Shown here piece after piece: positions 7,376 to 59,710 of a stretch of DNA of 64,000 bases. Source of the DNA: Biomaibacter acetigenes. Its GTDB lineage: Bacteria; Bacillota; Thermosediminibacteria; Thermosediminibacterales; Tepidanaerobacteraceae. The DNA is taken from NCBI RefSeq assembly GCF_003691585.1, contig NZ_CP033169.1, forward strand, positions 1,426,001 through 1,490,000, written 5' to 3'. The translations under genes were made by a program, and so were the position numbers. Position 1 is the stretch's first letter. Each line of letters starts with the position of its first letter. Under the pieces are notes generated by a model that was not told the origin of the DNA, did not search any database, and saw nothing but the letters and a program-made list of their open reading frames with translations.

Positions 7376-7390
7376 CATGGAGTGATGAAC

Positions 7391-42391: not shown

Positions 42392-43249
42392 ATGGAGATT
42401 CAGTGGTATCCAGGACATATGGCAAAAGCTAGAAAGATTATAAAGCAAAACATCCGGTTGGTAGATGCAGTGATAGAATTAGTTGATGCCCGGGCACCTT
42501 TGGCAAGTCACCTTCCGGACCTTGATGAACTTTCGGGTGGTGCGCAAAAAATTGTGGTTTTAAACAAAGCTGACCTTGCCGATGAAAGGGTTACCGGAAT
42601 GTGGATAAAAAAATTTAGAGAAATGCAATTAGAAGCCCTTGACGTGAATTCCATGGACCGGCACTCCGTTAAAAGACTGATAAATTTGATAACAACCATT
42701 TACTGCAAAAAGCCGGGCTGTAGGCCAACCAGATGTATGATTATCGGTATTCCAAATGTGGGAAAATCATCTATCATAAACCAGATGGCCGGCAGGAAAG
42801 GTGCCAGAACCGGAGATATACCCGGGGTCACAAAAGGAAAGATGTGGCTGAAAGTGAATAAAGAGCTGGAACTGCTGGACACTCCGGGCATTTTATGGCC
42901 CAAATTTGAAGATAAAGCCATCGGAATAAAACTCGCCATACTCGGTTCCATAAAAGAAGAGTTGATTAATATTGAGGAACTTTCATATATTTTTCTGGAA
43001 TTTTTGTCAAAAGAATATCCCCACAGCTTGAGGGAAAGATATAAAATCGATGTTGGGAAAAGCCCCCGGGAAATGTTGAACGACATAGCTTTTAAAAGGG
43101 GATTTCTCATGGCAGGTGGGGTGCCCGATATGGAAAGAAGTGCAAAAACCCTGCTAATGGAATACCGCCAGGGTAAACTCGGAAGAATTTCCCTGGAGAA
43201 CCCCGATGAACAAGGAGGATTTTGGCAAAATATATCGAATCAAGAATAG
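42392..43249 (+). CDS. rbgA: Ribosome biogenesis GTPase RbgA (YlqF)
   Basis: Circularly permuted GTPase for late 50S assembly. 285 residues. Order of motifs: G4 NKAD (about 50), G1 GIPNVGKSSIIN (about 119), G2 region GDIPGVTKGK and G3 DTPG (about 161). C-terminal RNA-binding domain about 200-285, with GGVPDMERSAKTLL. ATG behind AGGTGG. rnhB follows. Confidence 0.96.
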   Translation: MEIQWYPGHMAKARKIIKQNIRLVDAVIELVDARAPLASHLPDLDELSGGAQKIVVLNKADLADERVTGMWIKKFREMQLEALDVNSMDRHSVKRLINLITTIYCKKPGCRPTRCMIIGIPNVGKSSIINQMAGRKGARTGDIPGVTKGKMWLKVNKELELLDTPGILWPKFEDKAIGIKLAILGSIKEELINIEELSYIFLEFLSKEYPHSLRERYKIDVGKSPREMLNDIAFKRGFLMAGGVPDMERSAKTLLMEYRQGKLGRISLENPDEQGGFWQNISNQE

Positions 43250-43274
43250 ATAGCCAGTGGAAGGGGGCATTTTT

Positions 43275-43910
43275 GTGACTGATTTAAATAAAGAGATTAT
43301 AAGGCTCTCAAGACTTTACGATATGGAACGCAATCTCAGACAAAAAGGCCATGTCTTAATTGCTGGAGTTGATGAAGCTGGCCGGGGGCCCCTGGCAGGG
43401 CCGGTGGTGGCGGGAGCCGTCATTCTTGAGCCGGATACTACTATAATAGATTTAAAGGACTCCAAACTTTTAAGCGAGAAAAAAAGAGAGGCGGTATATA
43501 AAGAAGTAATTAAAGTTGCCGTATCTTATGCCTTTGATGTGGTAGACCAGGAGTACATAGATGAACATAACATCTTGAATGCGACCCTTCATGCTATGAA
43601 AAGAGCTGTTGAGAAACTGGGCGCAAAGCCGGATTTTATTCTCGTAGATGCGCTAAAAATACCCGGTATAGATATTCCCCAACAGGCTGTTATTCACGGG
43701 GATAATCTGTGCGCCTGTATAGCAGCCGCTTCAGTGATAGCAAAAGTAGAGCGGGACAGGATAATGAAAGGTTACGATAAAATATATCCCCAGTATGGTT
43801 TTTCCAGAAATAAAGGATACGGGACCAAGGAGCATGTGAATTCTATAAAGAAATACGGCTTTTGTCCCATTCACAGGAAAAGTTTTTCAATAAAAGGGCT
43901 GGAGATGTAA
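43275..43910 (+). CDS. rnhB: Ribonuclease HII
   Basis: Cleaves RNA in RNA-DNA hybrids, including single ribonucleotides. 211 residues. Catalytic acids in IAGVDEAGRGPLAGP (Asp, Glu), DSKLLSEKK, and LVDALKI (Asp); AASVIAKVERDRIM follows. GTG at 43275 lies 7 bases behind AAGGGGGC; the frame from 43257 is open but not conserved. A decayed second copy of its 5' part lies at 57946-58061. Confidence 0.96.
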   Translation: MTDLNKEIIRLSRLYDMERNLRQKGHVLIAGVDEAGRGPLAGPVVAGAVILEPDTTIIDLKDSKLLSEKKREAVYKEVIKVAVSYAFDVVDQEYIDEHNILNATLHAMKRAVEKLGAKPDFILVDALKIPGIDIPQQAVIHGDNLCACIAAASVIAKVERDRIMKGYDKIYPQYGFSRNKGYGTKEHVNSIKKYGFCPIHRKSFSIKGLEM

Positions 43911-43911
43911 G

Positions 43912-44265
43912 GTGGATAACAAAAAAATCGGCGCATTGGGTGAAAGGCGGGCGGTGGAGTTTTTAAAACGCAACAACTATAATATACTTGCCGTAAACTA
44001 CAGGTGCCGGCAGGGTGAAATAGATATAATAGCAAGGCAGGGAAACACACTTATTTTTATTGAAGTAAAAACCAGGAGTTCCTTAAAATTCGGCATGGGC
44101 ATGGAGGCAGTGAATTACGTCAAACAGCAGAAGATAAAGAAGGTTGCAATGAATTTTCTCAGTGAAAAAAGGACAGTTTTTACCGACCTGAGATTTGATG
44201 TGATAGACATAATGATAAAAGACCGGGACACTGCTGAAATAACACATATAAAAAATGCCTTCTAA
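43912..44265 (+). CDS. YraN family (UPF0102) endonuclease-like protein
   Basis: 117 residues with the restriction-endonuclease-like core: GERRAVEFLKRNNYNILAVN, GEIDIIARQGNTLIFIEVKTR (Asp, Glu-x-Lys). The biological role is not settled. GTG at 43912, with GGAG upstream in rnhB's last codons. In most bacteria the yraN-comM (yifB)-dprA order is conserved. Here only a 35-codon stub of comM follows, and the full comM is 13.9 kb away. A relic of another yraN 3' end lies at 58076-58159; 16 of its 27 residues match this protein. Confidence 0.9.
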   Translation: MDNKKIGALGERRAVEFLKRNNYNILAVNYRCRQGEIDIIARQGNTLIFIEVKTRSSLKFGMGMEAVNYVKQQKIKKVAMNFLSEKRTVFTDLRFDVIDIMIKDRDTAEITHIKNAF

Positions 44266-44277
44266 AGGGGGATAATA

Positions 44278-44385
44278 ATGCTGGCACAAGCTAAAAGCTG
44301 CGCCATTTATGGACTTGAAAGTTTTTTGGTGGATGTAGAAATAGATATATCCGGCGGCCTACCTGCCTTTGACAAGGTGGGTTAA
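44278..44385 (+). pseudogene. comM: 5' fragment of comM
   Basis: Encodes [20 protein letters not shown] and on to GLPAFDKVG before a stop codon, 35 residues. The first 31 codons match the start of the full comM at 58177. Bases 44278-44316 differ from that gene at 10 of 39 positions, mostly silent. Bases 44317-44372 are identical over 56 bp, and then the similarity ends abruptly. It has its own ribosome site (AAAGGGGG) and sits where comM belongs. This is the left edge of the inserted block. Confidence 0.9.
44317..44372 (+). repeat. 56-bp perfect direct repeat, left copy
   Basis: Identical to 58216-58271 inside the intact comM. It marks the junction between the backbone and the inserted block, and is the likely crossover site. 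Confidence 0.92.
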
Positions 44386-44399
44386 ATTGCCACAAAGAA

Positions 44400-44792
44400 A
44401 TGTTATCAAAAGAAAACGCTTTTAAGGTTCTAACCATAAGAAAAAGTCTTAACATAAGCGGAGAACCCCTATCGTATAATGTCGGATTCGGTTTAACCGA
44501 GAGCTGCCATCAACAGCTTTTAAACTTATCGCAGAAGAATGGATTAAACCCGTCGGAATTAATCAGAATGGCATTGGACTGTGTAATCTTCAATGAAAAT
44601 TATGTTGAGATGTTAAAAAGCCAAAGGAAAGCAAATAACGTATTGGTACATAAAAGGACTGTGAATCTGAATAAAACACAATTCAATAGAATTTCCGAAC
44701 TAAGCAAAACATACGGGATTGCGCGTTCGGAAATCATACGAAAATCAATAGAAGAATTTTTAAAAAAGGACTTTTTGCATCGAGAGGGATAA
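44400..44792 (+). CDS. Protein with two ribbon-helix-helix-like domains
   Basis: 130 residues, no named family recognised. Two segments look alike and resemble the CopG/Arc ribbon-helix-helix fold. Residues 27-64 have FGLTESCHQQLLNLSQKNGL then NPSELIRMALDCVI. Residues 86-121 have VNLNKTQFNRISELSKTYGI then ARSEIIRKSIEEFL. One chain could thus make a pseudo-dimeric DNA-binding unit. No strong ribosome site precedes ATG 44400. It begins 14 bases after the comM stub and ends 4 bases before the Sir2 gene, so the two may be expressed together. Confidence 0.6.
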   Translation: MLSKENAFKVLTIRKSLNISGEPLSYNVGFGLTESCHQQLLNLSQKNGLNPSELIRMALDCVIFNENYVEMLKSQRKANNVLVHKRTVNLNKTQFNRISELSKTYGIARSEIIRKSIEEFLKKDFLHREG

Positions 44793-44796
44793 AGGT

Positions 44797-45543
44797 GTGG
44801 ATTTTTTAAGGGAAATAGCACTCAAAACGGCCGATCTGATCAAAAGATCCGGCAAAACCCTTGCACTTACCGGTGCCGGCATCAGCACCGAAAGCGGGAT
44901 TCCGGACTATAGAAGCAAAGGCACGGGGTTGTGGGAAAAATATGACCCAATGTCAAAGGCCAGCCTTTCGGCATTAATTTCCGACCCGGTAGAATTTTAT
45001 AATTTTAACCTGCCCCGGTGGATTAAATACGCAAATGCCGAGCCGAATACCGCTCACCGGGTTCTTGCAAAGATGGAGGAAAAGAATTTTATCCGTGGAG
45101 TTATAACCCAAAATATCGACGGGCTTCACATTAAAGCGGGTTCCAGAAACGTATGGGAAGTTCACGGCCACCTTCGCACGTGTCGCTGTATGGGTTGCAA
45201 TCATAAGTATGATTTTTCCGAAGCTGTGCGGCAGTTTGAAGACGGGATAGTTCCCCCAAAATGCAAAACATGCGGCGGTATACTCAGGCCTGATGTAGTG
45301 CTTTTCGAAGATCCCATGAGCAGCGACTATTACAGGGCGCTGGAGGCTTTAGAGGGTTGCGAACTTTTAATTGTGGTAGGAAGCAGTCTGCAAGTATACC
45401 CAGTAGCAGACATGCCTTATCTTGCAAGACAAATGGTAATCATCAACAAAGAACCGACCACGTTTGATAGCCGAGCCGCCGTAACAGCTCATTGCAAAGC
45501 AGGCGAATTTTTTGAAGAGCTGGCGTCAATTTTAAAGATATAA
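44797..45543 (+). CDS. Sir2-family NAD-dependent protein deacylase
   Basis: 248 residues. NAD-binding GAGISTESGIPDYRS (about residues 25-39), TQNIDGLHIKAGS (about 105) and catalytic His in WEVHGHLRTC (about 124). Zinc-binding CRCMGC and CKTCGG; VVGSSLQVYP near the C-terminus. Removes acetyl or other acyl groups from lysine, giving nicotinamide and O-acyl-ADP-ribose. GTG at 44797 with AAAGG upstream. With acetyl phosphate made by Pta-AckA, lysine acetylation is likely in this host, but no target is visible. Confidence 0.92.
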   Translation: MDFLREIALKTADLIKRSGKTLALTGAGISTESGIPDYRSKGTGLWEKYDPMSKASLSALISDPVEFYNFNLPRWIKYANAEPNTAHRVLAKMEEKNFIRGVITQNIDGLHIKAGSRNVWEVHGHLRTCRCMGCNHKYDFSEAVRQFEDGIVPPKCKTCGGILRPDVVLFEDPMSSDYYRALEALEGCELLIVVGSSLQVYPVADMPYLARQMVIINKEPTTFDSRAAVTAHCKAGEFFEELASILKI

Positions 45544-45565
45544 AAAGCTATTAAATAGTTACCTA

Positions 45566-45649
45566 TTTTGACCTTACCTCAATGTTCCGCCTTTGCCTTT
45601 CCGCAAGGTCGGTCTCAAGCAGGTCGTTTAAGAACGCAAGATACTTTTG
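45566..45649 (-). pseudogene. Probable remnant of an IS21-family istB gene
   Basis: Twenty-eight codons on the minus strand read QKYLAFLNDLLETDLAERQR and on to RNIEVRSK, like the N-terminal region of IstB helper ATPases (YLxFLxxLLxxElaeRexRRIxxR). No Walker motifs or transposase follow. The rest of the 325-base gap 45544-45868 holds only the tetR promoter region; I see nothing else in it. Confidence 0.4.
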
Positions 45650-45797
45650 GTTTAGAAAGATATAGTGATAAAAAATAGGCACCATTTTGACCTCGAAAAA
45701 TTCTTTTCTTAGGCATTCCAAAGGGGGAAATATTGCTGTAAATTTATGGTTGAGATCGAAAAAGGTCACAAAGAAAAAAGCTTATTAGCATAAATAT

Positions 45798-45828
45798 TTG
45801 ACATAAACAAAAAAGTATGCTATATAAT
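45798..45828 (+). promoter_or_regulatory. Sigma-A promoter of tetR
   Basis: TTGACA (45798-45803) with TATATA at 45821 (17 bases) or TATAAT at 45823 (19 bases). The palindrome at 45841 lies at the transcription start. Confidence 0.75.
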
Positions 45829-45840
45829 AAATTAATAAGA

Positions 45841-45850
45841 CGGACGTCCG
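45841..45850. promoter_or_regulatory. TetR operator candidate, site 1
   Basis: CGGACGTCCG, a perfect 10-bp palindrome at the expected start of the tetR transcript. The same sequence with similar flanks (ACGGACGTCCGAnTAA) recurs at 46811. Confidence 0.75.
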
Positions 45851-45868
45851 AATAACTATAAAAAAGAG

Positions 45869-46456
45869 ATGATGAAAATGAATTATCCGGAGGAAAGAAA
45901 TCAGTCCCAAAGGATATTGGAAGCGGCATATGAATGCATTTCGACCAAAGGGTATGCAAATGTATCTCTGAGGGAGATCGCTGATAATGCCGGAGTTGTT
46001 TTAAGCCAGCTACATTATTATTTCGGAAACAAAGAGGGCCTTTTCAGGGAAGTAATAAAAATGATGATAAAAAAATATCTATTTGAAGTGGAAAGCTATT
46101 TAAAGAAAGGGAAAACCGCAAAAGAAAGGCTATCGTCATTGATTAATTTTTTTAAGGAAATGTTAAAAAACAATCCGGGGCTATTCCGCTTATTATATGA
46201 TTTCACCGGCCTTGCCCTATGGTCTCCTTCTTTTAGCACCCTGCTGCGAAACTTATTTAAAGATTTATCAAACATGATAGAAGAACTGATTTTAAAGAAT
46301 AGCCATTTAATGGAAAATTTGCAGGGGTACTCTCCGGCCCTCTTAGCCAGGATGATTCTGGGAGCAATGTTTGGGACAGCTATACAGGTTATGCTTGATG
46401 AGGACAAGGAAAATTTGCCTGACGCCTTAAATGCAATACAAATAGTGTTAGATTAA
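45869..46456 (+). CDS. TetR/AcrR family transcriptional regulator
   Basis: 195 residues. N-terminal helix-turn-helix, about residues 12-58 (SLREIADNAGVVLSQLHYYF, then GNKEGLFREV). C-terminal ligand-binding helices, unlike any family I can name. No strong ribosome site precedes ATG 45869; the later ATG at 45878 or 45872 may be used. The palindrome in its own promoter and again before ubiB suggests self-control and control of the next genes. The ligand is unknown; a lipid or hydrophobic compound is an inference from the neighbours. Confidence 0.9.
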   Translation: MMKMNYPEERNQSQRILEAAYECISTKGYANVSLREIADNAGVVLSQLHYYFGNKEGLFREVIKMMIKKYLFEVESYLKKGKTAKERLSSLINFFKEMLKNNPGLFRLLYDFTGLALWSPSFSTLLRNLFKDLSNMIEELILKNSHLMENLQGYSPALLARMILGAMFGTAIQVMLDEDKENLPDALNAIQIVLD

Positions 46457-46481
46457 ATCATGACAAAAAGGAGAGAGGTAA

Positions 46482-46786
46482 ATGCTAAACTTATTAGAAA
46501 AATCAATGTATCTTGGCTTCGGTATTTTTCATATTCCAGAGAAAAAATAGAAAAGATTGTGGAGGAACTGGTGGAAAAAGGCGAGATAACAAAGAAAGAC
46601 GCTCAGAAAATGGTATCCGATATGGTTAAAAAAGGGCAGGAACAAAAAAAAGAATTGGGAAAGATAATAAGAGATGAAATCACAAAATCCATTGATTACA
46701 TGAATATCGCCAGAAAACAAGACCTGGTAACCAAAGAGGAAATCAGGGATATTGTAAGAGAAGAGCTTAATAAAGCATTAAAATAA
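46482..46786 (+). CDS. Phasin-like coiled-coil protein, frame broken at an A6 run
   Basis: Similar to the 'phasin family' proteins of Clostridia, about 101 residues if one base is restored. ATG 46482 follows AGGAG at 8 bases and encodes MLNLLEKSMYLGFGIFHIPE, the usual N-terminus, but the frame stops at 46548. The rest (KIEKIVEELVEKGEITKKDA and on to EELNKALK, strongly coiled) is in another frame. One extra A in the A6 run at 46542-46547 would join them. An open frame from 46460 avoids the break but lacks a ribosome site and the conserved start. Either a true frameshift or a base missed in the run. Function in this setting unknown. Confidence 0.7.
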
Positions 46787-46810
46787 GGATTTGTTGTAAA
46801 ATATGTAATA

Positions 46811-46820
46811 CGGACGTCCG
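46811..46820. promoter_or_regulatory. TetR operator candidate, site 2
   Basis: CGGACGTCCG, identical to site 1 at 45841, 22 bases before the ubiB start codon and after the phasin-like gene. Confidence 0.72.
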
Positions 46821-46841
46821 ATTAAATGGATGGGATAAAAA

Positions 46842-48533
46842 TTGACTGTTATAAACCAGATTAAGCATATAAAGAGATACAGGCAAATTATTCAGGTTTT
46901 TATTAAGCATGGCTTCGGAACAATTGTCGATAACTTGGGTATTTTAAGTTACCTAAAAATAAAAAGACATTTGCTTAAAGGTGAAAATAGTTATGATAAA
47001 AAGCTTAATATAGGTGAGAGGTTGAGGCTTGCTCTGGAAGAGTTAGGGCCAACTTTTGTAAAGCTGGGTCAGATTCTAAGCACAAGGCAGGATATCTTGC
47101 CCCAGTATATTATCCGCGAACTTGAAAAATTACAAGATGAAGTTCCTCCTTTTCCATTTCATGAAATTAAATCCATTATCGAAAGTGAATTAAACGATGA
47201 TCTAGAAAATATTTTTGCAGAATTTGATGAAAAACCCATCGCAGCTGCTTCTATAGCTCAGGTCCATGTTGCTAGACTGAAATCCGGGATGAAAGTTGTA
47301 GTTAAAGTTCAAAGGCCCGGGATAGAGAGGATAATTGACCAGGATTTAAGCATTTTGGAAGACCTTGCCCAGTTTATAGATAAACATACTAAATATGGCA
47401 GATTGTATAATTTCAGTAAGATGATAGAGGAATTTAAAAATACTTTGTTCAATGAATTGGATTTTACAGTAGAAGGTGAAAATGCCGATACATTCAAGAA
47501 AAATTTTAGACGGGATAAAAACATTAAAGTCCCTGAAATAAACTGGATCTACACTACGAGACGAGTTTTAACCATGGAATATATTGAGGGTATTCGGCTA
47601 AGAGATTTTTATGCCTTTGAAGAAGAAGGAATCGACAGAAAGATAATAGCCAGAAATCTATCAAAGTCCATATTTAATCAGATTTTTAGAGATGGTTTTT
47701 TCCATGCTGATCCCCACCCCGGAAATATTATGATTTTGCCGAAAAATAATATAGCACTTTTGGACTTTGGTATGGTAGGCAAACTAAATGAAGATCGCAA
47801 GATCCAGTTTTTAAAAATATTTCTTGGCATTTCTTTTAGAGACAGCAAACTAATCATCCGGGCGATAATGAGCCTGGGAGCCATGACACAGCGTGTAAAT
47901 ATTAAAAAAATCGAGAGGGATCTGAATTCTATCCGGGATACGTACCTTTCAATTCCTCTCAATGATATAAAAATTGGCAATATATTTAGAGATATTTTTG
48001 AACTGGCATTTTCTTACAACATTATACTCCCGGCCGAATTCACCATGCTAGCTAAATCCCTGGTAACTTTGGAAGGGGCGGTAGCGGAGCTTGATCCCGA
48101 AATGAATATTTTTGAAGTGGCGGAACCCATAGCCAGGAGGTTGATGTTCAAACTCTATTCACCCGAAAAGTTTATGAAGGGGTTTCTGGCAGGAATGGTG
48201 GATTACGGGAATCTATTAAAAGAAGTTCCTTCTTCAATGCTCAACTTTATCAATAAAATGGAAGAGGAAGATTATACTTTACAGTTCAGTCTAAAAGGTA
48301 ACGAAGATACTATTAAGCGAATAGATAAAATAGCTAACCGTATATCTTTTAGTTTAGTTCTTTTGGCAGTAAGCATAATAATCGCCGGTATTATAATCGG
48401 GTCAGGTATGAGTGCTCATACTGGAGTAGAAATTTATTTGCTCAACCTTGCTGTATTAAAAATTGGTCTTGTTGTTGGCGGATTAATAGTTATATGGCTT
48501 GTTTTATCAATTTTCCGCTCTGGAAGCCTTTGA
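46842..48533 (+). CDS. UbiB/AarF (ADCK, COQ8) family atypical kinase
   Basis: 563 residues. The ADCK-type motifs are present: FVKLGQILSTRQDILP (KxGQ, about residue 73), AAASIAQVH (A-rich loop), VKVQRPG, FHADPHPGNIM (about 290) and LLDFGMVG. Two C-terminal membrane helices, about 497-520 and 530-558. In aerobes UbiB/COQ8 supports quinone synthesis by ATP-driven handling of lipids at the membrane; this anaerobe shows no such pathway here, so another isoprenoid or lipid substrate is likely. TTG at 46842 is the only sensible start, with a weak GGATGGGA upstream. A candidate operator lies 22 bases before it. Confidence 0.9.
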   Translation: MTVINQIKHIKRYRQIIQVFIKHGFGTIVDNLGILSYLKIKRHLLKGENSYDKKLNIGERLRLALEELGPTFVKLGQILSTRQDILPQYIIRELEKLQDEVPPFPFHEIKSIIESELNDDLENIFAEFDEKPIAAASIAQVHVARLKSGMKVVVKVQRPGIERIIDQDLSILEDLAQFIDKHTKYGRLYNFSKMIEEFKNTLFNELDFTVEGENADTFKKNFRRDKNIKVPEINWIYTTRRVLTMEYIEGIRLRDFYAFEEEGIDRKIIARNLSKSIFNQIFRDGFFHADPHPGNIMILPKNNIALLDFGMVGKLNEDRKIQFLKIFLGISFRDSKLIIRAIMSLGAMTQRVNIKKIERDLNSIRDTYLSIPLNDIKIGNIFRDIFELAFSYNIILPAEFTMLAKSLVTLEGAVAELDPEMNIFEVAEPIARRLMFKLYSPEKFMKGFLAGMVDYGNLLKEVPSSMLNFINKMEEEDYTLQFSLKGNEDTIKRIDKIANRISFSLVLLAVSIIIAGIIIGSGMSAHTGVEIYLLNLAVLKIGLVVGGLIVIWLVLSIFRSGSL

Positions 48534-48571
48534 GACTAAAATCTACTTGAAATATTTATGGAGGGATTATT

Positions 48572-49945
48572 GTGACTCAAAAATGGCAACCAAATCTGGA
48601 TTTTGCAAAAAGGTACATAAGTGAAAAGGTTTTACAGCAACTGTTAAGCTATTTAAGCAGGGACCCGGTCCGTCATATGGAACAGATTTTAAGCCTGGGC
48701 AAGATTTTGGCACGGCGGGAAGAACACAGGAGAAACATAGAAGCCATAGAAAAGGCCATTGCTACAAATCCGGCTATTAACCAACTGGCCGAAGGATTAT
48801 TGAAGGATACCCATTCCAATGTGTTACATAGACTCCTTTATAACTGGTTTATAAATTCCGCTTTGCTGGGTATTCCACGCCAGCGCCAGCTGTCAGATAC
48901 TTTAGGGTTTAATGTTCCCCATTTCATATTAGTAGATCCTACCGGCGCATGCAACCTTCGATGTGAGGGATGCTGGGCAGGTGCCTATGCAAAACATGAT
49001 GAACTTTCCTTTGAACGGTTGGATCGTCTCTTTAATGAGGCAAAGGATTTGGGGATATACTGGATAGTTATGTCTGGAGGGGAGCCGTTCTTATATCCTC
49101 ATTTGTTCGATTTAGCAGCTAAACACAGCGACATGGCTTTTATGATATATACTAACGGCACCATGATCGATGACCGGGTAGCAGATAAAATTGTGGAAGT
49201 TGGCAACATATCTCCTGCCTTTAGCCTTGAGGGCTGGGAAAACAGGACCGATCAAAGGCGCGGTAAAGGGGTCTTTAAAAAAGTAACTGAAGCTATGGAC
49301 CGTCTGAGGGAAAGAGGAGCTGTTTTCGGGATTTCCCTTACAGCCACCCGGGACAATGTAGATGAAATAACGTCGGATAATTTCATAGACTTTTTAACGG
49401 AGAAAGGAGCCAGGTACGGATGGATATTCCATTATATTCCTATTGGTCGTAATCCCAACCCCGAATTAATGCTTACTCCGGAGCAAAGGGCCTATATGGC
49501 AGAAAGAATCCCATACATTCGCAGTCATAAGCCCATTTTACTGGGTGATTTCTGGAATGATGGAGAGTTAACCCAGGGATGTATAGCCGGGGGAAGGAGA
49601 TATTTCCATATAACCGCCAGCGGAGCTGTAGAACCGTGTGCTTTTGTCCATTTTTCCACTCAAAATATCAATGACTGCAGCCTCAAGCAAGTTCTACAGT
49701 CACCATTGTTTACGACTTTCCAAAAAAGGCAGCCTTTTTGCGACGATCATCTCAGGCCTTGCCCCATTATTGATGTACCTGAAGGACTAAGACAAATTGT
49801 AAAAGAAAGCGGGGCTAAGCCTACTCATGATGGTGCCGAGGATGTGTTGAAAGGAGAAGTGGGAGAATTCCTTGATCTGCGTTCCACGGCCTGGGCGAAG
49901 GAGGTCGCAAAAATAAGGTCGGAAGTTCGCAAAAATATCTGTTAA
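48572..49945 (+). CDS. Radical SAM protein with C-terminal cysteine-rich extension
   Basis: 457 residues. A helical N-terminal domain (about 1-110) precedes the radical SAM core with CNLRCEGC (Cys 127, 131, 134) and SGGEPFLYP. After the core, four more cysteines, in QGCIAGG, AVEPCAF, PFCDD and RPCPII, could hold a second iron-sulfur cluster, as in SPASM or twitch proteins. Substrate unknown. GTG at 48572 lies 7 bases behind GGAGGG, 38 bases after ubiB, so it is probably in the same unit. Confidence 0.88.
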   Translation: MTQKWQPNLDFAKRYISEKVLQQLLSYLSRDPVRHMEQILSLGKILARREEHRRNIEAIEKAIATNPAINQLAEGLLKDTHSNVLHRLLYNWFINSALLGIPRQRQLSDTLGFNVPHFILVDPTGACNLRCEGCWAGAYAKHDELSFERLDRLFNEAKDLGIYWIVMSGGEPFLYPHLFDLAAKHSDMAFMIYTNGTMIDDRVADKIVEVGNISPAFSLEGWENRTDQRRGKGVFKKVTEAMDRLRERGAVFGISLTATRDNVDEITSDNFIDFLTEKGARYGWIFHYIPIGRNPNPELMLTPEQRAYMAERIPYIRSHKPILLGDFWNDGELTQGCIAGGRRYFHITASGAVEPCAFVHFSTQNINDCSLKQVLQSPLFTTFQKRQPFCDDHLRPCPIIDVPEGLRQIVKESGAKPTHDGAEDVLKGEVGEFLDLRSTAWAKEVAKIRSEVRKNIC

Positions 49946-50095
49946 TTCCATTTCCGGTGATTTATTTTTCCTAAGGGCCGGGTTTGTAACCAGGATGAAC
50001 CGTGCCCTTTTCAACCTGGATGGGCCTATCTCTGAGGTTATTTGGTCAAATTGAGCAAATGCTAAAAAGTATGTAGAGGCAATGGAAGTGAAAAC

Positions 50096-51070
50096 ATGAA
50101 TAAAAAACAGAAGGTTAAAGTAAGGCCACGCATCGGAATAGCCTTGGGAAGCGGTGGCGCTAGAGGCTATGCCCACATAGGTGTGCTCAAGGCGTTGCAT
50201 GAGGCGAATATACCTATTGATGTTATTGCTGGAACCAGCATGGGGGCAGTAGTAGGTGCAGCCTATGCTATAGGTTACCGAATCGAAGAATTAGAGGATA
50301 TGGCTCTGCAAATGCGGTGGCGATGGTTGTTTAACTTGATCGACCCTGCTATACCACGTCAGGGAATAATAGCTGGAAACAAAGTTGAAAAGTATTTTAA
50401 AATATTAACTAAGGGAAAAGTGTTTGAACAGTTGGAAAAACATTTAATTGTTGTTGCTACTGATATCACATCTGGAGAGGAAGTGCGTATCAATTCAGGA
50501 CCGGTGGCAAGGGCCTTACGAGCCAGCATAGCCATACCTGGTGTTTTTTCTCCAATCAAGTCAGGACAAAGCCTGTTGGTGGATGGTTCGGTTACTACGC
50601 CTGTACCTATTATGGCAGCCATAGAGGCTGGGGCAGAGATTGTTGTGGCTGTTGATGTTAGTTCGAACGTGGATCAAACTGCCACACTGGTGCAAACATG
50701 GAAACGCTTGAAGAGAATGCCTTCTAAAAAGATATTTCAAATAATTGACACTCAAAAAATTGGTCGTTTTATTAAAAATTCACAATTTGAGATTGTAAAC
50801 GTAATAGGCAATACATTGGAATTGTGTAACCAACCTAAAGAAGTTTCTAAGCCTACATCGATAGCCAATAAGCATTATTTGCTGTTAAAGCCTGATGTGG
50901 GAGATGTAAGGTGGTATGAGTTTCATCGGGTTAGAGAGTGTATTCACGCAGGAGAAGTTGTGGGAAAACAGGTAGCTGAACAGATAAAATATTTTCTGAG
51001 TACAGGGAACTTTCTTGTAGAACCTGACAAGCAAAACGGTAGGGAACTAAGAGCAATTGGAGGTAATTAA
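50096..51070 (+). CDS. Patatin-like phospholipase, second copy
   Basis: 324 residues. GIALGSGGARGYAHIGV oxyanion loop, nucleophile GTSMGAVVGAAYAIG (Ser at about 46) and catalytic Asp in VDGSVTTPVP (DGS in place of the commoner DGG). A C-terminal extension of about 60 residues relative to the copy at 18212 has no motif I know. ATG 50096 with GGAAGTG upstream. It lies 150 bases behind the radical SAM gene; that gap holds nothing I recognise. Confidence 0.9.
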   Translation: MNKKQKVKVRPRIGIALGSGGARGYAHIGVLKALHEANIPIDVIAGTSMGAVVGAAYAIGYRIEELEDMALQMRWRWLFNLIDPAIPRQGIIAGNKVEKYFKILTKGKVFEQLEKHLIVVATDITSGEEVRINSGPVARALRASIAIPGVFSPIKSGQSLLVDGSVTTPVPIMAAIEAGAEIVVAVDVSSNVDQTATLVQTWKRLKRMPSKKIFQIIDTQKIGRFIKNSQFEIVNVIGNTLELCNQPKEVSKPTSIANKHYLLLKPDVGDVRWYEFHRVRECIHAGEVVGKQVAEQIKYFLSTGNFLVEPDKQNGRELRAIGGN

Positions 51071-51180
51071 ATAAATTTTATAGGTGAAGTTTTCGTTTAT
51101 TCGGCAATATGTTGACTATATAGCCCCCCAACATACTTGGAAAAAGCTTATGTGAATAGTAATATAAATTTAGGAGGAAT

Positions 51181-52029
51181 ATGATGAAAAAAGCTATTAT
51201 AATTACAGACACATCCTGCGACCTTCCAGGAGAGATAATTGATCAATATCCTATAAGGGTTTTGCCAATGCCCGTTTCGGTAAAAGACAAACCTGAAATG
51301 AACATTTCCGGTCTTACTGTAAAAGAGTTTTACGATATGATGAGAAATAATCAGATCATGCCCACTACTTCTCAAGTTTCTGTAGCAACTTTTATAAAGA
51401 CCTTCGAAGAGTGCTTAAAAGAAAAATATGCGCCGGTGGTCATAGGACTGTCCTCGAAACTTACAAGCAGTTATCAATCAGCATTAATGGCAAAAGATAC
51501 TCTGAAAAGTGATGATATAGTGGTACTGGATTCAAAGTGTGCGAGTCTGGGTCAAGGCCTTGTGGTGATGAAAGCGGCTAAAATGGCCCGGGACGGTAAA
51601 AACCCCAAAGAAATTGTCGAGGAAATTGTGCCCTATGCCGAACATATGGAGCACATATTTACCGTGGATTCCCTGGAACACCTGAAGCGCGGAGGAAGGA
51701 TTTCTGCTGCTCAGGCTTTTGTGGGAGGCCTGCTCAACATAAAGCCAATTTTGCATTTTGTGGATGGAGCCATCCAACCCCTGGAAAAGGTGAGGGGCCG
51801 TAAAAATGTGATAAAGCGAATGGTGGAGATAATGGCACAAAGGGGCAAAAATATTGAAAACCAGATAATTGGCATAAGCCATGGTGATAACGAAGAAATG
51901 GCTCTTGAACTGGCGGATACAATAAAAACGAAATACGGTGTAAAAGATATAATTATTTCGTGGATAGGGCCGGTAATAGGAAGTCATGCCGGCCCCGGCA
52001 CCCTGGCGCTGTTTTTCCAAAATGCCTGA
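51181..52029 (+). CDS. DegV family fatty acid-binding protein, second copy
   Basis: 282 residues. TDTSCDLPGEIIDQYPIRVLP at the start (key TDTSCDLP), GLSSKLTSSYQSALMAKD, KRGGRISAAQAFVGGLLN. It may deliver a different fatty acid to FakA than the copy in the fab operon. ATG (two in a row at 51181) lies 7 bases behind AGGAGG. Next to a patatin, it fits capture of fatty acids released from lipid, an inference from position only. Confidence 0.92.
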   Translation: MMKKAIIITDTSCDLPGEIIDQYPIRVLPMPVSVKDKPEMNISGLTVKEFYDMMRNNQIMPTTSQVSVATFIKTFEECLKEKYAPVVIGLSSKLTSSYQSALMAKDTLKSDDIVVLDSKCASLGQGLVVMKAAKMARDGKNPKEIVEEIVPYAEHMEHIFTVDSLEHLKRGGRISAAQAFVGGLLNIKPILHFVDGAIQPLEKVRGRKNVIKRMVEIMAQRGKNIENQIIGISHGDNEEMALELADTIKTKYGVKDIIISWIGPVIGSHAGPGTLALFFQNA

Positions 52030-52056
52030 TGTCGTTGCAGGATGTGATGGATTGAC

Positions 52057-53316
52057 ATGAACGCGGTGAATGCATACCTAAAACTGGTGAGAAAAAACCT
52101 TGACAAACCTACCATAGCTTATAAATTAATAAAATACGGCCTTAGTGTGGCGGAAAAATACGTCAGCTTTTTCCCGGACAGGAGATTGCCTGAATCTCTC
52201 CGGTCTTTAACCAAATTGTGCTTTAAATATATAAGGGCACCCATAGATAACCCGCAAAACTCAGTCTGGGTCAATGTCTTTGCACCAACGGAATTCCTGC
52301 ATGCCATGGACATATATCCGCTCTTTATAGAAGCCTATTCATCATATATGTCGGGATTTTGTGTAGAAGATTGTCTCATAGATAAAGCCGAATCCGCTGG
52401 CATATCTAATACACTTTGCAGCTATCACAAGGCTTTCATAGGTTCCGGCGAATTGGGAATTCTCCCAAAACCCAAAATGGCTGTAACCACTTCCATGGTC
52501 TGTGACGCAAACATTAACACCTTCAGATATCTGGCCGCCAAATTCGATATCCCTATTTACATAATTGATATTCCGTATGAATATAACCGGAATACCGTTG
52601 AATACGTAAAAGGGCAATTACTTGAAATGATAGGATTGATTGAAGGCGTCTTTAACAAAAAACTGGACCTTGACAGATTAAGGGAGATAATTTCGCTGGA
52701 AAACCGGACTAGAAAATTAATAAAAGAGTATATTAATAATTTGAAATCTAAAAGTTTTAACACTACTATGGCCACGGAGATGTACATGCTCTTTACCTCC
52801 CATGTTTTCATGGGACTAAAAGAGACGTTCGATTTTTATGAGCGCCTTGTTGATGATATAAAAAAAGCGCCCGACAGGAGCGGTAAAGGCATATTTTTTG
52901 TCCATCTGCTCCCGATGTTTGAAAAGAGTTTTAAGAAATATTTAAATTTCAGCAGTGAGTTTCAAATTTTAGGTAGTGATTTGAATTACGATTTCCTCGA
53001 CGAAATGTATTGTCCGGATCCCTTTGAAGCCATAGCCGAAAAGATGATTTTAAACATATACAACGGCGGTTTCGAAAGGAGAGTAAAGGCCGTTTCCAAT
53101 TTGGTCGATGAGATAAAGCCCGACGGTATAATACAGTTTTGTCATTGGGGGTGTAAACAATCCATCGGCGGCGTCGGCATTTACAGGAATTATTTCAGGG
53201 AAAGAGGCATTCCCTTTCTGGCTGTAGACGGTGACGCAATAGATAAGAGAAATAATCAAGAGGGCCAGATAAGGACAAGGCTTGAGGCCTTTCTAGAAAT
53301 GCTGAAGAGAAGGTGA
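52057..53316 (+). CDS. 2-hydroxyacyl-CoA dehydratase-type iron-sulfur protein, large
   Basis: 419 residues of the HgdB/BcrC/FldC superfamily. The three cluster-ligand cysteines of the family can be matched: TLCSYHKAFIG (about residue 115), SMVCDANINT (about 143) and HWGCKQSIGG (about 364). The length and lack of a CoA-transferase gene nearby fit both a dehydratase half and the homodimeric double-cubane-cluster reductases known from Carboxydothermus. ATG 52057 has no strong ribosome site. It is followed by a shorter relative and by the activase. Confidence 0.82.
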   Translation: MNAVNAYLKLVRKNLDKPTIAYKLIKYGLSVAEKYVSFFPDRRLPESLRSLTKLCFKYIRAPIDNPQNSVWVNVFAPTEFLHAMDIYPLFIEAYSSYMSGFCVEDCLIDKAESAGISNTLCSYHKAFIGSGELGILPKPKMAVTTSMVCDANINTFRYLAAKFDIPIYIIDIPYEYNRNTVEYVKGQLLEMIGLIEGVFNKKLDLDRLREIISLENRTRKLIKEYINNLKSKSFNTTMATEMYMLFTSHVFMGLKETFDFYERLVDDIKKAPDRSGKGIFFVHLLPMFEKSFKKYLNFSSEFQILGSDLNYDFLDEMYCPDPFEAIAEKMILNIYNGGFERRVKAVSNLVDEIKPDGIIQFCHWGCKQSIGGVGIYRNYFRERGIPFLAVDGDAIDKRNNQEGQIRTRLEAFLEMLKRR

Positions 53317-53320
53317 CAAT

Positions 53321-54160
53321 ATGATAGGTTATGTCTGCAAATACACTCCTGTGGAGATAATCAAAGCCTTTGATGAGGAAGTGTCAAGGATTGATCCGGA
53401 AATTAAGACTTATGAAAAAGCCGAAGGTTTGACCCACCCCAATATGTGCAGCTTTATGAAGGGGACCCTGGAGGATATACTGCAAAAAAATATTGACGAG
53501 GTGGTCCTGGTAAACTGCTGTGACAGTATAAGAAGACTTGCCGAAATATTAAAGAATAAGGTTAAATTTTTGCATGTGATCGACCTGCCGAGAAAGATAA
53601 ATGAGAGCGCATGCAATTTGTTTTATGCGGAATTACTTGAGTTTATCAGAGCTTATGAAGAATATAAGGGTAAGAAATTTGATCAAGATAGGTTTAAAAA
53701 TATATTAAAAGAACACAAGGCAAAAATTTATGACTCGAATGAATGTATCGCAGTTTTGGGTGCTAGGTTCAAAGACGATGTAATTAAAAACATAGAGGAA
53801 AGGTACAATATCAATGTAATCAATTTGACGTGTACGGGGGATCAAAGACTGTCAAATATAATGCAAGGGAATGATTTAATTTTCAACTATGCGTCTGCAA
53901 TTATGAATTCTTATCCTTGCATGAGGATGACCGCAGATAGGCTGGCTTTTTTAAAAAATTACAATCTAAAGGGCATTATTTATAACACCGTGAAGTTTTG
54001 CGATTTTTACTCTTTTGAATATGCTTCCCTGAAAAATTTTTTGAATGTGCCCATATTAAAGATTGAAACGGATTACCTGGATTTTGACGGCGGTCAAATC
54101 CTGAACAGGGTGGATGCCTTTCTGGAATCCGTTGGAGTCAGAAAATCGAAGTGCAGGTAA
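53321..54160 (+). CDS. 2-hydroxyacyl-CoA dehydratase-type iron-sulfur protein, short
   Basis: 279 residues, a compact member of the same superfamily as the gene before it. The three cysteines again align: NMCSFMKGTL (about 43), LVNCCDSIRR (about 65) and SYPCMRMTAD (about 206). It begins 5 bases after the larger protein's stop codon, behind GAGAAGGTG, and overlaps the activase by 10 bases. The pair may make a two-subunit enzyme with the large partner. Substrate unknown. Confidence 0.78.
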   Translation: MIGYVCKYTPVEIIKAFDEEVSRIDPEIKTYEKAEGLTHPNMCSFMKGTLEDILQKNIDEVVLVNCCDSIRRLAEILKNKVKFLHVIDLPRKINESACNLFYAELLEFIRAYEEYKGKKFDQDRFKNILKEHKAKIYDSNECIAVLGARFKDDVIKNIEERYNINVINLTCTGDQRLSNIMQGNDLIFNYASAIMNSYPCMRMTADRLAFLKNYNLKGIIYNTVKFCDFYSFEYASLKNFLNVPILKIETDYLDFDGGQILNRVDAFLESVGVRKSKCR

Positions 54161-54945
54161 AAAACAGAGGATACTTCATGGGCATCGACAGCGGGTCCAC
54201 GTCGACAAATGCCGTAATACTGGATCAGGATAAAAACATTATCTCCTATTCCATCATTCCCACTGGGGCAAAGGCCCTGGACAGCGCCTGGGAGGCATAT
54301 CGGATTGCTCTTGAGAAAGCCAATTTAAGAAGAGAAGATATCTCCTGCGTTGTTTCCACAGGGTATGGAAGAATAAGTATTCCCTTTTCAGACAAATCCG
54401 TCACGGAGATAACCTGTCATGGAAAAGGGGCATTTTACCTTGACAGCGGCGTGAGGACGATAATAGACATTGGCGGCCAGGACAGCAAGGTGATAAGGCT
54501 GGATGATTGCGGAAACGTGGTTGATTTTGTCATGAATGACAAATGTTCGGCGGGAACCGGAAGGTTTTTGGATGTCATGGCAAGAGTTCTTCAGGTTTCC
54601 ATTGAAGACATGGCAGAGGTTGTAAGGGATTTTAAAGAGGATATCACAATAACCAGCATGTGCACCGTCTTTGCCGAATCCGAAGTCATCTCCCTGATTG
54701 CACAAAATAAAGATAAAAGGGATATTATCAGGGGATTGAACAGGTCGGTGGCATCGAAGGTCGCCTCGCTTTTGGGCAGGGTGGGAAAGCGCGCAAAATA
54801 CATGATGACAGGTGGAGTCGCCAAAAACAATGGAGTGGTGTATGAAATAGAAAACAAAATCCAGGAAAAGATAATAGTTCCATTTGAACCGCAGATTGTC
54901 GGTGCTTTAGGTGCGGCATTGATCGCCGCCGGCGAAAACGACTAG
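54151..54945 (+). CDS. Acyl-CoA dehydratase activase (BadF/BadG/HgdC family)
   Basis: 264 residues, ASKHA-fold ATPase that injects one electron into a dehydratase or reductase while hydrolysing ATP. GIDSGSTSTNAVIL phosphate loop (about 11-24), GGQDSKVI, the cluster Cys in DKCSAGTGRFLD (about 134) and in SMCTVFAESEVISL (about 170), and MTGGVAKN. These two Cys form the 4Fe-4S bridge between two subunits. GTG at 54151 keeps the first beta strand (YFMGID); ATG at 54178 would cut it. Tail to tail with clpB. Confidence 0.92.
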   Translation: MQVKNRGYFMGIDSGSTSTNAVILDQDKNIISYSIIPTGAKALDSAWEAYRIALEKANLRREDISCVVSTGYGRISIPFSDKSVTEITCHGKGAFYLDSGVRTIIDIGGQDSKVIRLDDCGNVVDFVMNDKCSAGTGRFLDVMARVLQVSIEDMAEVVRDFKEDITITSMCTVFAESEVISLIAQNKDKRDIIRGLNRSVASKVASLLGRVGKRAKYMMTGGVAKNNGVVYEIENKIQEKIIVPFEPQIVGALGAALIAAGEND

Positions 54946-54946
54946 T

Positions 54947-57520
54947 TTAATCTATCAGCTCATCCAGGTTTATTTTTTCGTCCGATTTTACGCCCTGAAC
55001 TATCATACGGCTCAATGGGGTTTCAATTTCCTGCTGGATGAGCCTCTTCAGCGGTCTTGCCCCATAAGAAGGATCATAACCTTTTTCGGACAGATAATTT
55101 AAAGTCCTATCGGACCAGGTAAGTTCCAAGCCGGCAAAGTCCTTTACCCTCTGGGCGAATTTCTCCAGAAGCATTTGGGAGATTTGTTTCATATGAGATT
55201 TTTCCAGTGGATGAAATACTATTACCTCATCCACCCGGTTTAAAAACTCGGGTTTGAATTGACGCCTCAGGAGATTAAGTACCCGCTCTTTAACTATAGA
55301 AAAATCTTTGCCGCCTCCCGCCTGAAATTCCAGGATTTCATGGCTTCCAAGATTGGAGGTCATGATGATGACGGTATTCTTAAAGTCCACGGTTCGCCCC
55401 TTGCCGTCGGTTAGTCTGCCGTCGTCGAGAATCTGCAGCAAAACGTTGAATACATCGCTGTGAGCTTTTTCTATTTCATCCAGAAGGATGACCGAATAGG
55501 GATGGCTCCTGACCGCCTCAGTCAGCTGGCCGCCCTCCTCGTAACCCACGTATCCCGGAGGCGCTCCTATGAGCCTTGAAACCGAATGCTTTTCCATATA
55601 CTCGGACATATCAATCCTTATGATGTTGCGCTCATCGTCGAACAGGGCTTCTGCAAGAGATTTGGCCAGTTCTGTTTTGCCCACTCCCGTGGGCCCAAGA
55701 AAGATAAAGCTACCCACCGGCCTGCCGGGGTCTTTTATGCCGGCCCGCGCCCTCAGGACTGCGTCGGCCACGGCTTTAACAGCATCTTCCTGGCCCACCA
55801 CCCGCCTGTGGAGGATATCCTCCAGGTGCAGCAGCTTTTGTTTTTCTCCTTCCATGATGCGGTTCAGGGGAACACCTGTCCACTGGCTTACCACCCGGGC
55901 TATTTCTTCTTCATCCACCTCTTCTTTTAAGACAGCCTCTTTTGCATGTTCCTTCATCATGGCATTTTCTTCCTCGCTCAACTTTCTTTCCAGTTCGTTC
56001 AACCTGCCGAATTTCAGTTCCGCCACTTTGTTCAAATCATATTCCCGTTCGGCTCTTTCAATCTGGATTTTAACTTCATCAATCTGCTTTTTAAGGTCGT
56101 GAATTTTCGTTATCCTGTCTTTTTCCTGTTTCCAGCGTTCTTTCATGCTGTTGGCTTTGACGTTTAACTGGGCGAGCTGATTTTTAATTTTTTCCAGCCT
56201 TTCCATAGACTGTGGGTCATTTTCCTTCTTTAAGGCCGCTTCTTCTATCTGGAGCTGGGTAATTTTTCGCAGGATTTCATCCAGTTCCGCAGGCATGCTG
56301 TCTATTTCCGTCCGAAGGCGCGCCGCCGCTTCATCCATCAGGTCTATAGCCTTGTCAGGCAGGAATCTATCAGGAATATATCTGTCAGAAAGCACCGCAG
56401 CGGCGATGATGGCACTGTCTTTGATTCTGACCCCGTGATATACCTCGTATTTTTCTTTAAGGCCCCTCAATATGGAAATGGTGTCTTCCACCGAAGGCGG
56501 CTCTACCAGCACCGGCTGGAAACGGCGCTCCAGAGCCTTGTCTTTTTCGATGTATTTTCGATATTCCTCTATGGTGGTCGCCCCGATAGCCCGGAGTTCG
56601 CCCCGGGCCAGCATGGGCTTCAGGAGATTGCCGGCGTCCAGTGCACCTTCCGCAGCGCCGGCTCCCACTACGGTGTGAAGCTCGTCGATGAACAATATGA
56701 TCCGGCCGTCTGAGTTCTGGACTTCTTTCAACACTGCTTTCAGCCTTTCCTCGAATTCTCCCCTGAACTTGGCGCCGGCGATGAGAGAACCCATATCCAG
56801 GGCTATTATTTTCTTATCTTTCAAACCCTCGGGCACATCTTTGGATACTATGCGCCGGGCCAGACCCTCTGCGATGGCCGTCTTCCCCACTCCGGCCTCG
56901 CCAATGATAACAGGATTGTTCTTGGTGCGCCTGGAAAGAATTTCAATAACTCTCCTTATTTCTTCATCCCGGCCGATGACCGGGTCCAGCTTTCCCTCCC
57001 GGGCGAGCCGGGTGAAATCCCTGCCGTATCGGTTGAGGGCGTCATATGTGGCTTCTGGGTTTTCACTGGTGACCTGCTGGCTGCCACGGATCTTTTTCAA
57101 AGCGTCGAGAATCCTGTTTCGGTCTAGCCCGAAGTTTTTAAAAACATCTTTTATGTCCCCGTCTCCCTCTTCCATAAGAGCCAGGAGAAGGTGCTCCACA
57201 CTGACGTATTCGTCCTTCATCCGGGAAGCTTCTTTTTCTGCGCGGACCATTACCCTTAAAAGACCGGAACTCATGGCCAGAGGCCCGTCGTATCCATGGA
57301 CGGAAGGAATGCGCCTTACGATATCTTCCGCCGAGGTTTTGAACATCTCATGATTCACACCGGCCAGAGTCAGAAGCCGGGGTATGAAGCCGTCTTCCTG
57401 GATGAGCAGGGAAAGAAGAAGATGGCGGGGCGTCACCTCCTGATGATGGCGCTCCACAGCCAGCTTCTGAGCCTCCGCAAGGGCTTCGGTGGATTTTTGA
57501 GTATATTTGTTTATATCCAA
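54947..57520 (-). CDS. clpB: ATP-dependent chaperone ClpB
   Basis: Hexameric disaggregase working with DnaK. About 857 residues. Clp N-domain about 1-145, first AAA+ with [15 protein letters not shown] (about 203), the long coiled middle domain about 400-540, second AAA+ with [15 protein letters not shown] (about 605) and C-terminal D2-small domain. The middle domain marks it as ClpB rather than ClpC. TTG at 57520 is preferred (six bases behind AGAGGTG; begins (M)DINKYTQKS); GTG at 57529 overlaps that site. Promoter with CtsR-like repeats upstream. Confidence 0.96.
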
Positions 57521-57607
57521 CTTTAACACCTCTTTTAAGGTAATTTGGGCGACATATTAATTTAGAATGGATGGTAACGAGAAGCTCAGTGAAAGATGCT
57601 TAATATT

Positions 57608-57637
57608 ATAATATTACAAAGGTCAGGAAAGGTCAAT
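57608..57637 (-). promoter_or_regulatory. clpB promoter with CtsR-like heptads
   Basis: On the minus strand TTGACC (57636-57631), 17 bases, TATTAT (57613-57608). On the plus strand the -35 is part of GGTCAGG-AAA-GGTCAAT (57621-57637), close to the CtsR operator, a tandem GGTCAAA with a 3-base spacer. No CIRCE element is present. Confidence 0.6.
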
Positions 57638-57945
57638 ATATCGCCACAAAGCACCGAAGAATTATAAGCACTCAATCCTTTACCCAAAAGCCCAATAAAT
57701 ATATAACATGATCGCTGATTTCAATGCGACAATATTTAAAAAAGCATCTTTAAAAAGTGTGCACTACACCTGAGCTTCATAGGTAGGCTTTGCTGTTTTT
57801 AGGAACAAATATGACAAAACCGACATTTCCAACAAAAATAAAGATAAATTTACAAGGGGGATGGGTTCAGCGGATACAAAAAGCAGGATTTTAAACAAAA
57901 GTAGCGAATTAAGATAAACGAGGGTATTTTTTTTGGAAAATATTA

Positions 57946-58061
57946 ACTGAGATAGAGAAGTAAAAAATCTTAAAGCTATACGACACCGAGGGGAATTGAA
58001 AAGCAGGAAGCTTGAGCTGGTTGCCGGAGTTAATGAAGCTGGCAGAGATCCATAGGCGGGG
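57946..58061 (+). pseudogene. Relic of the 5' part of rnhB
   Basis: Frame-shifted, stop-containing copy of the rnhB start. Bases 57946-57980 translate TEIEK and then KILKLYDTEGN around stops, like TDLNKEIIRLSRLYDMERN of the intact gene. After a shift, 58020-58052 reads VAGVNEAGRDP for IAGVDEAGRGP. The stretch before it (about 57880-57945) faintly recalls the 3' end of rbgA. The remainder of the gap 57530-57880 holds the clpB promoter and nothing else I recognise. Confidence 0.7.
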
Positions 58062-58075
58062 TAAAACATAAATTC

Positions 58076-58159
58076 GATAACCTGCGATTTAATGTGATAG
58101 ACATATTGATAAATCGAGAAAAGACACATGAGATCATTCATATAAAAAACACCTTTTGA
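58076..58159 (+). pseudogene. Relic of the 3' end of yraN
   Basis: Twenty-seven codons and a stop in one frame, DNLRFNVIDILINREKTHEI and on to IHIKNTF, match the last 27 residues of the YraN protein at 43912 at 16 positions. No 5' part is present; it is joined to the rnhB relic after a deletion. It directly precedes comM, as yraN should. Confidence 0.85.
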
Positions 58160-58176: not shown

Positions 58177-59710
58177 GTGCTATCGCAAGTTAAAAGCTGT
58201 GCCATATATGGTTTGGAAAGTTTTTTGGTGGATGTAGAAATAGATATATCCGGCGGCCTACCTGCCTTTGATATTGTCGGCCTTCCGGATGCGGCCGTAA
58301 AGGAATCCAGGGAGAGAGTAAGGGCGGCTATAAAAAATCAAAACTTTGACTTTCCAATAAAGAGAATTACCCTGAATTTGGCTCCGGCCGATATAAAAAA
58401 AGAAGGTCCCCACTTTGACCTTCCCATTGCCCTCGGGATACTATCTGCCACGGACCAATTGCCTGCAGAATCCCTCAAAAAATATGCGGTGGTGGGGGAA
58501 TTATCCCTGGATGGCAGGATAAGGCCAGTCAATGGTATTCTGCCTATGGCCATAGAGGTCCAGCAAAAAAATCTAAAAGGCATAGTGGTCCCATGGGAAA
58601 ATGCAGAGGAAGCTGCGGTAATTCAGGGTATCGATGTCATCGGAGTCAACTCATTGAAAGAAGCGGTGGATTTCTTTAAAGGCGAAATGAGGATAGAAGC
58701 CGTAAAGTTGCCGATCAAGCGGGAAACTTCGGATACAGCGGAAGGAGATTTTGCCGAAGTGAGGGGGCAGGAAAATTTAAAACGCTGTCTGGAAATTGCT
58801 GCCGCCGGCCACCATAATCTCATTATGTTCGGTTCACCCGGAACCGGAAAGACTATGGTAGCCAGGCGCATTCCAACTATCCTTCCATCCATGACTTTTG
58901 AAGAATCCTTAGAGCTCACGAAAATATACAGCATAGCAGGTTTGCTCTCCAACCATTCGGGGTTGGTACAAAAAAGGCCCTTCAGGGCTCCCCACCACAG
59001 TATATCATCCGTGAGCCTTGTAGGAGGAGGCCGTATTCCAAAACCCGGTGAAGTTACTCTTGCTCATTACGGGGTACTTTTTTTGGACGAGCTCCCGGAA
59101 TTTCCCCGGGAGATACTGGAACTTTTGCGCCAGCCTTTGGAAGATGGGGAAATAACCATATCCAGAATAAACGCCACCATTACATATCCCGCAAAGTTCA
59201 TGCTGGTGGCGGCTTTAAATCCCTGTCCGTGCGGTTTTTATGGAGACCCCTTCCACGAATGCTCCTGCAGTCCCCAGCAGATACATAAATATCTTTCAAA
59301 GATTTCCGGGCCTCTTTTAGATCGAATCGATATCCAGACCGAAGTGGCTCCGATGAAGTTTTCCGACTTTGAAAATTCCGCTGTAACAGATTCCGCTACT
59401 ATAAAAAAGAGGGTGGAGAATGCAAGACTAATACAATTGGAAAGATATAAAGGACAAAATATATACTGCAATTCTCAACTCACCCCCAATCTCATAAGCA
59501 AATATTGCAATCTGGGCCGGGGGGAAAAAGTTGCTTTTAAAGGATGCTTTTAACCGTTTGAGGTTGAGCGGCCGGGCATACAACAGGATATTGAAAGTTT
59601 CAAGGACCATTGCTGACTTAGAACAAAGCCGGGATATAAAAGAAAATCATCTGGCTGAAGCACTGAGATACCGAAATCTGGACAAATATTATCAGAATTT
59701 AAGGATGTAG
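58177..59710 (+). CDS. comM: ComM/YifB Mg-chelatase-like ATPase, frameshift near the C-terminus
   Basis: AAA+ helicase that extends D-loops during natural transformation in other bacteria. N-terminal Lon-like domain (about 1-165; [22 protein letters not shown] in part), Walker [14 protein letters not shown] (about 219), Walker [10 protein letters not shown], cysteines [10 protein letters not shown]. The first frame stops at 59553 after [10 protein letters not shown]. The expected tail ([20 protein letters not shown] and on to YYQNLRM) continues one frame over to 59710. Removing one base of the G6A5 run at 59519-59529 joins them into about 510 residues, the family's length. GTG at 58177 lies 10 bases behind AAGGAGGT. 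Confidence 0.9.
58216..58271 (+). repeat. 56-bp perfect direct repeat, right copy
   Basis: Identical to 44317-44372 in the comM stub; lies in codons 14-32 of comM. Confidence 0.92.

Follow-up and report, generated by a model that had tools for sequence, protein, structure and literature searches.

Decayed rbgA, rnhB and yraN pieces upstream of comM in Biomaibacter acetigenes are consistent with insertion into comM and later rebuilding of its 5' end

The window analysed here is a 64,000-nucleotide stretch of the Biomaibacter acetigenes genome (contig NZ_CP033169.1, positions 1,426,001 to 1,490,000). On its plus strand it carries rbgA (42392–43249), an open reading frame in the order rplS-rbgA-rnhB-yraN that is conserved in relatives, followed by rnhB (43257–43910) and yraN (43912–44265), each the sole copy in the 3.4-Mb, one-contig genome as judged by Pfam searches (PF01351 and PF02021, one match each). 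Behind yraN, on the same strand, lie a 5' stub of comM (44278–44372), a proposed attachment arm (44373–44396) and a copG-like gene (44400–44792). Inserted DNA follows (44797–57529), and beyond it a tract of gene remnants (57878–58159) stands directly upstream of comM itself (58177–59553, plus strand; Pfam Mg_chelatase and ChlI). In Tepidanaerobacter and a related MAG (L034–L036), rbgA-rnhB-yraN-comM-dprA-topA are contiguous with no insert. A same-genus MAG (G001, L033) has the arrangement of the window with a shorter insert, and in G004 (L040) clpB lies between yraN and comM.

Using the intact genes at 42392–44265 as the reference, we found that the tract upstream of comM holds the 3' tip of rbgA, the 5' end of rnhB and the 3' end of yraN, all on the plus strand and in the ancestral order. 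The yraN piece (58073–58159) is the clearest; residues encoded by 58073–58156, followed by the gene's own TGA stop codon, are identical to the intact YraN tail at 17 of 28 positions (tblastn, E 5.4e-9), and a YraN profile built from relatives scores 21.8 bits, against 7.0 for the best among 1,800 shuffled frames. The rnhB piece (57960–58061) is frameshifted and interrupted by an in-frame stop. Its downstream part (57996–58061, LKSRKLELVAGVNEAGRDP*AG) matches intact RnhB at 12 of 22 residues (tblastn, E 1.3e-4), with 13.3 bits from a profile of relatives and a shuffle maximum of 6.1, and the relic runs on upstream in another frame as LYDTEGN, where the intact protein has LYDMERN (DNA score 23, shuffle maximum 16, 0 of 500 shuffles as good). 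The rbgA tip (about 57878–57914) was recovered by DNA alignment; 10 of 500 shuffles did as well in the window alone, and none of 500 did in the sister genome G001 or in G004. On these alignments we regard the relic pieces as real.

A first-pass annotation of this DNA had described a second yraN 3' end in frame with its stop (16 of 27 residues matching) and a stop-bearing rnhB 5' relic at 57880–58159, preceding comM in the ancestral order. Both pieces and their order are borne out by the matches above, although the tract is longer than that annotation reported, the rbgA tip being part of it. The finding that would have spoken against these relics was a lack of significant matches, and searches with intact RnhB and YraN gave significant matches to both.

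The same relic lies upstream of comM in G001, 92–99% identical to that of the window (genome G000), which exceeds the 83% identity of the functional yraN genes between the two genomes. G004 retains a shorter relic before comM. Profile searches detected no YraN or RnhB relic before comM in the 12 other genomes searched (G013, G014, G016–G019, G021, G207, G255, G278, G323 and G383), which leaves G000, G001 and, in part, G004 as the genomes known to have it to date. In a similarity comparison the yraN tail proved about equally close to its own lineage and to Tepidanaerobacter.

The left edge has a different character. The stub behind yraN, which the first-pass annotation had noticed, is the start of comM (tblastn, E 2e-19). 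It covers codons 1–32, including the first two bases of codon 32, and its 3' end at 44372 is the dinucleotide GA, the proposed core, making the stub the proposed left half of an attL; translated matches reach codon 35–36 because the adjoining arm happens to keep V and G. That arm (CAAGGTGGGTTAAATTGCCACAAA), the proposed attP-derived right half, was defined by alignment with the arms of G001 and Fervidicola, and a position matrix trained on other genomes, with G000 and G001 left out, ranked position 44373 second of 127,952. The copG-like gene beside it encodes a ribbon-helix-helix protein (Pfam RHH_3). A copG homologue lies directly behind the comM stub in the window, G001, Fervidicola (G015) and G071. 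Within the class, copG homologues occur in 4 of 26 genomes: G000, G001 and G015, with an adjacent stub each time, and G019, where copG has no stub next to it and a comM fragment lies at the end of another contig.

In other Firmicutes comM is split at the same codon. A large serine recombinase gene abuts a headless comM in three genomes (G015, G071 and G315), and in two of these (G015 and G071) the corresponding stub, with copG behind it, has been preserved as well. In Fervidicola G015 the stub and copG homologue are on one contig and the recombinase abutting headless comM is on another; the recombinase, encoded at 5050–6606 of L150, has Resolvase, Recombinase and Zn-ribbon domains. Genes for a TraG-type ATPase and a Gp3-like directionality factor lie in the DNA beside the edges, and the two flanks together make up a GA-centred inverted repeat of about 24 nt, the form expected for an attP. 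The two edges lie about 78 kb apart on one contig in G071, and in G315 the recombinase precedes headless comM. Stubs that stop at this codon occur in about 12 Firmicutes genomes, and about ten genomes with such stubs are additional to the cases above; the comparison draws in part on draft genomes and MAGs. Two further fragments were set aside: a reverse-strand comM fragment in Petroclostridium (L043, 8186–8287; codons 20–53), 1.7 kb before comM, whose end is not at the site, and comM codons 1–22 at a contig end beside a second folD-fchA (L164, G019 C153), where duplication or strain mixture is possible.

The stub of the window ends at the codon where stubs also stop in genomes that have a complete element (G001, G015 and G071 are among those sharing the codon), an element-type arm lies directly behind it, and copG is next to the arm. 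Because the stub ends at the recurrent insertion codon and is followed by arm and copG, 44278–44792, 14 kb upstream of the relic tract, has the appearance of a defunct attL left by a large serine recombinase element that targets comM. This reading of the left edge is the firmer part of our account, and we consider it highly probable.

These observations bear on the reading that the first-pass annotation implied for the two edges, a plain duplication of rbgA-comM with unrelated DNA between the copies, after which each gene lost one of its two copies in a reciprocal pattern. The edges are indeed reciprocal, with rnhB and yraN surviving on the left and comM on the right; second copies of the neighbours occur in the ancestral order (rbgA' tip, rnhB' and yraN', with the comM stub behind yraN), and the window has no recombinase, all of which a duplication would accommodate. 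Its left end, however, is not an arbitrary duplication end but a recurrent insertion point, and duplication leaves the stub end at the recombinase entry point, the matching arm and copG unexplained. We consider it very unlikely as a full account. Because the stub ends where the recombinase enters and arm and copG follow, insertion with re-creation of the comM 5' end fits better.

The DNA between the edges is absent from the yraN-comM junction of Tepidanaerobacter and encodes Sir2, TetR, phasin-like, UbiB-like, radical SAM, patatin, DegV and 2-hydroxyacyl-CoA dehydratase genes, with clpB on the minus strand. Among G000, G001 and G004 its genes have dS values of 0.03–0.25, far below the mostly 0.5–2.6 of backbone genes, indicating that all or some of the insert was exchanged between the lineages, recently and after their split. 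Upstream of clpB, a tandem GGTCAGGAAAGGTCA (57610–57640), also present in G001 and G004, appears to resemble CtsR operator heptads.

No serine recombinase remnant was found in the inserts of the window, G001 or G004, and the single PF07508 match of the window's genome, at 1886091, lies outside the insert. A search of the insert for a second, inverted attachment arm (attR) gave nothing above background. The end of the insert opposite the attL therefore has neither a recombinase nor an attR with headless comM, the comM 5' end there being full. We read the missing recombinase as a loss and the window as the remnant of an element, not an element. The right edge, on this sequence evidence, is no attR: what runs into comM there is a decayed second copy, rbgA'-rnhB'-yraN'. 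Most likely, the relic pieces are what remains of comM's former neighbourhood in a second copy, one that restored the front end of the gene after a mobile element had split it.

We propose the following history, whose order of events, source of the second copy and mode of joining are inferred. The ancestor would have had rbgA-rnhB-yraN-comM-dprA-topA contiguous, as still in Tepidanaerobacter. A large-serine-recombinase element would then have entered comM within codon 32. After its integration, the comM 5' stub, arm and copG would have made up the left edge (attL), with a headless comM at the right edge. Another copy of the neighbourhood (rbgA' tip-rnhB'-yraN'-comM 5' part), whose donor was most likely a relative, would afterwards have recombined by homology with comM on its right and joined element DNA without homology on its left. 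This joining would have eliminated the element's recombinase end and restored the comM 5' end, and rnhB' and yraN', being redundant, would have decayed.

What the sequences hold directly are the relics in ancestral order, the stub with its arm and copG, the contiguous empty site in relatives, complete elements splitting comM at the same codon, and the exchange of insert DNA; together with the attP-like inverted repeat of G015, the arm rank, the distribution of copG, the dS values and the gene trees described below, these support insertion followed by rebuilding from an incoming rbgA'-comM fragment. We consider it the best explanation and give it about an even chance of being correct. Against it stand the missing recombinase remnant and second attachment arm in the insert, and a relic too short to tell foreign from own origin. 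No intermediate with an element and headless comM in the same genus appeared among the genomes examined, and the non-homologous left junction of the second copy was neither dated nor matched to any donor.

The comM gene offers traces of exchange of its own. Its 5' end is complete. The first-pass annotation had called the gene intact, a description that fails at the 3' end; relative to G001, G004 and L034, alignment shows one extra base near 59527, a +1 frameshift that cuts off the last ~60 residues, which continue in another frame to 59711. The extra base may be either a real frameshift or a sequencing error. Near the start, a 56-nt tract (58216–58271) ending at the crossover point is identical to the stub (44317–44372), while in G001 the corresponding stretches of comM and stub differ at 18 of 65 positions, so the stub probably overwrote this part of comM in the lineage of the window. 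In a topA tree G000 and G001 are grouped (support 100/99), while the comM tree does not group them; its split with G004 is unresolved and its tips are longer. This discord is as expected had a comM allele been imported, and at least one comM allele was probably exchanged between lineages, although the exchange may be unrelated to rebuilding.

All the readings that we weighed accept the relics; where they part is the route by which the second copy came in. The main rival is a Campbell-type integration, in which an element in comM of another cell was mis-excised as a circle together with its left host flank (rbgA tip-rnhB-yraN-comM 5'-attL), and the circle entered an intact rnhB-yraN-comM locus by one homologous crossover. 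The attraction of this scheme is that a single event would produce both edges: the left copy would stop at the attachment site, the right copy would start inside rbgA, and the missing recombinase end would be accounted for. It needs an illegitimate circle, however, and neither such a circle nor an intermediate was found. Nor does it predict a pattern seen in other families, where stub and whole comM are homologous over just 65–140 nt upstream of the start codon. We regard it as rather unlikely.

That pattern occurs in G255, G278, G323, G383, G207 and G394, in which a short 5' cassette (65–140 nt plus about 32 codons) is common to the stubs and the whole comM, and several stubs lie in succession upstream of comM. 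Stubs lie upstream of, and on the same strand as, a whole comM in G207, G255, G278 and G383, the last of which (L199, L200 and L201) has four comM 5' stubs spread over 119 kb. In L199 of this genome, from a distant family, a comM stub adjoins patatin, radical SAM and phasin-like genes (3235–8054) similar to the ones in the window insert. G394 (L206, L210) has a broken comM and a stub on one contig, and a whole comM on another.

Some integrative elements replace the 5' end of the gene they enter. The shared cassettes and serial stubs would suit an element that carries a comM 5' cassette at its right end, with yraN', rnhB' and rbgA' captured alongside, and that cuts and replaces the gene at once. 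Yet comM is headless in all three genomes that still have the recombinase, the attP half of Fervidicola is not comM-like, and a 1.1-kb host flank would be an unusual passenger; we judge this explanation unlikely. The serial stubs also raise the possibility, which we put forward tentatively, that in thermophilic and other Firmicutes serine-recombinase elements split comM time and again, and that imported DNA restores it each time. Every such cycle might then leave an upstream comM stub like a growth ring, and the relics of the window could be what is left of the donor DNA from one restoration.

Competence genes are frequent targets of mobile elements, and whether hosts recover them by recombination has been asked before. 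Of the predicted site-specific recombinases in Durrant et al. 2022 (PMC10083194), 12.4% target the magnesium chelatase/ATP-dependent protease (comM-type) family. As in the large serine recombinase elements of that study, a comM-type target is disrupted here, and in relatives a Resolvase/Recombinase/Zn-ribbon recombinase abuts the split gene; unlike them, the window has no recombinase or attR, just attL and copG, and decayed neighbours precede a comM whose 5' end has apparently been restored. In Acinetobacter, Aggregatibacter and others, comM is interrupted by AbaR/Tn7-like and other elements (PMC4774983, PMC11472951), and a 2024 Acinetobacter study raised recovery of comM by recombination, with no excess over chance (PMC11472951). 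Those cases likewise involve mobile elements entering comM and the question of its recovery, but they concern other hosts and other integrases, and no scar with relics of a rebuilding copy is described (PMC4774983, PMC11472951). The mode that we propose for the right edge, homology-facilitated illegitimate recombination, joins linear DNA by homology at one end only and comes from laboratory work (PMC3240628), whereas here it is deduced from an old scar.

Insertion of large serine recombinase elements into comM-type genes is thus known, and the fossil of both cutting and rebuilding is the newer part; we found no locus with both an attL stub and decayed neighbours of a rebuilding copy in the open-licence literature. 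If our reading is true, the attL scar and the decayed neighbours would make one recovery of comM readable in sequence, and the recurring stubs in other Firmicutes could be used to tally how often insertion and recovery took place.
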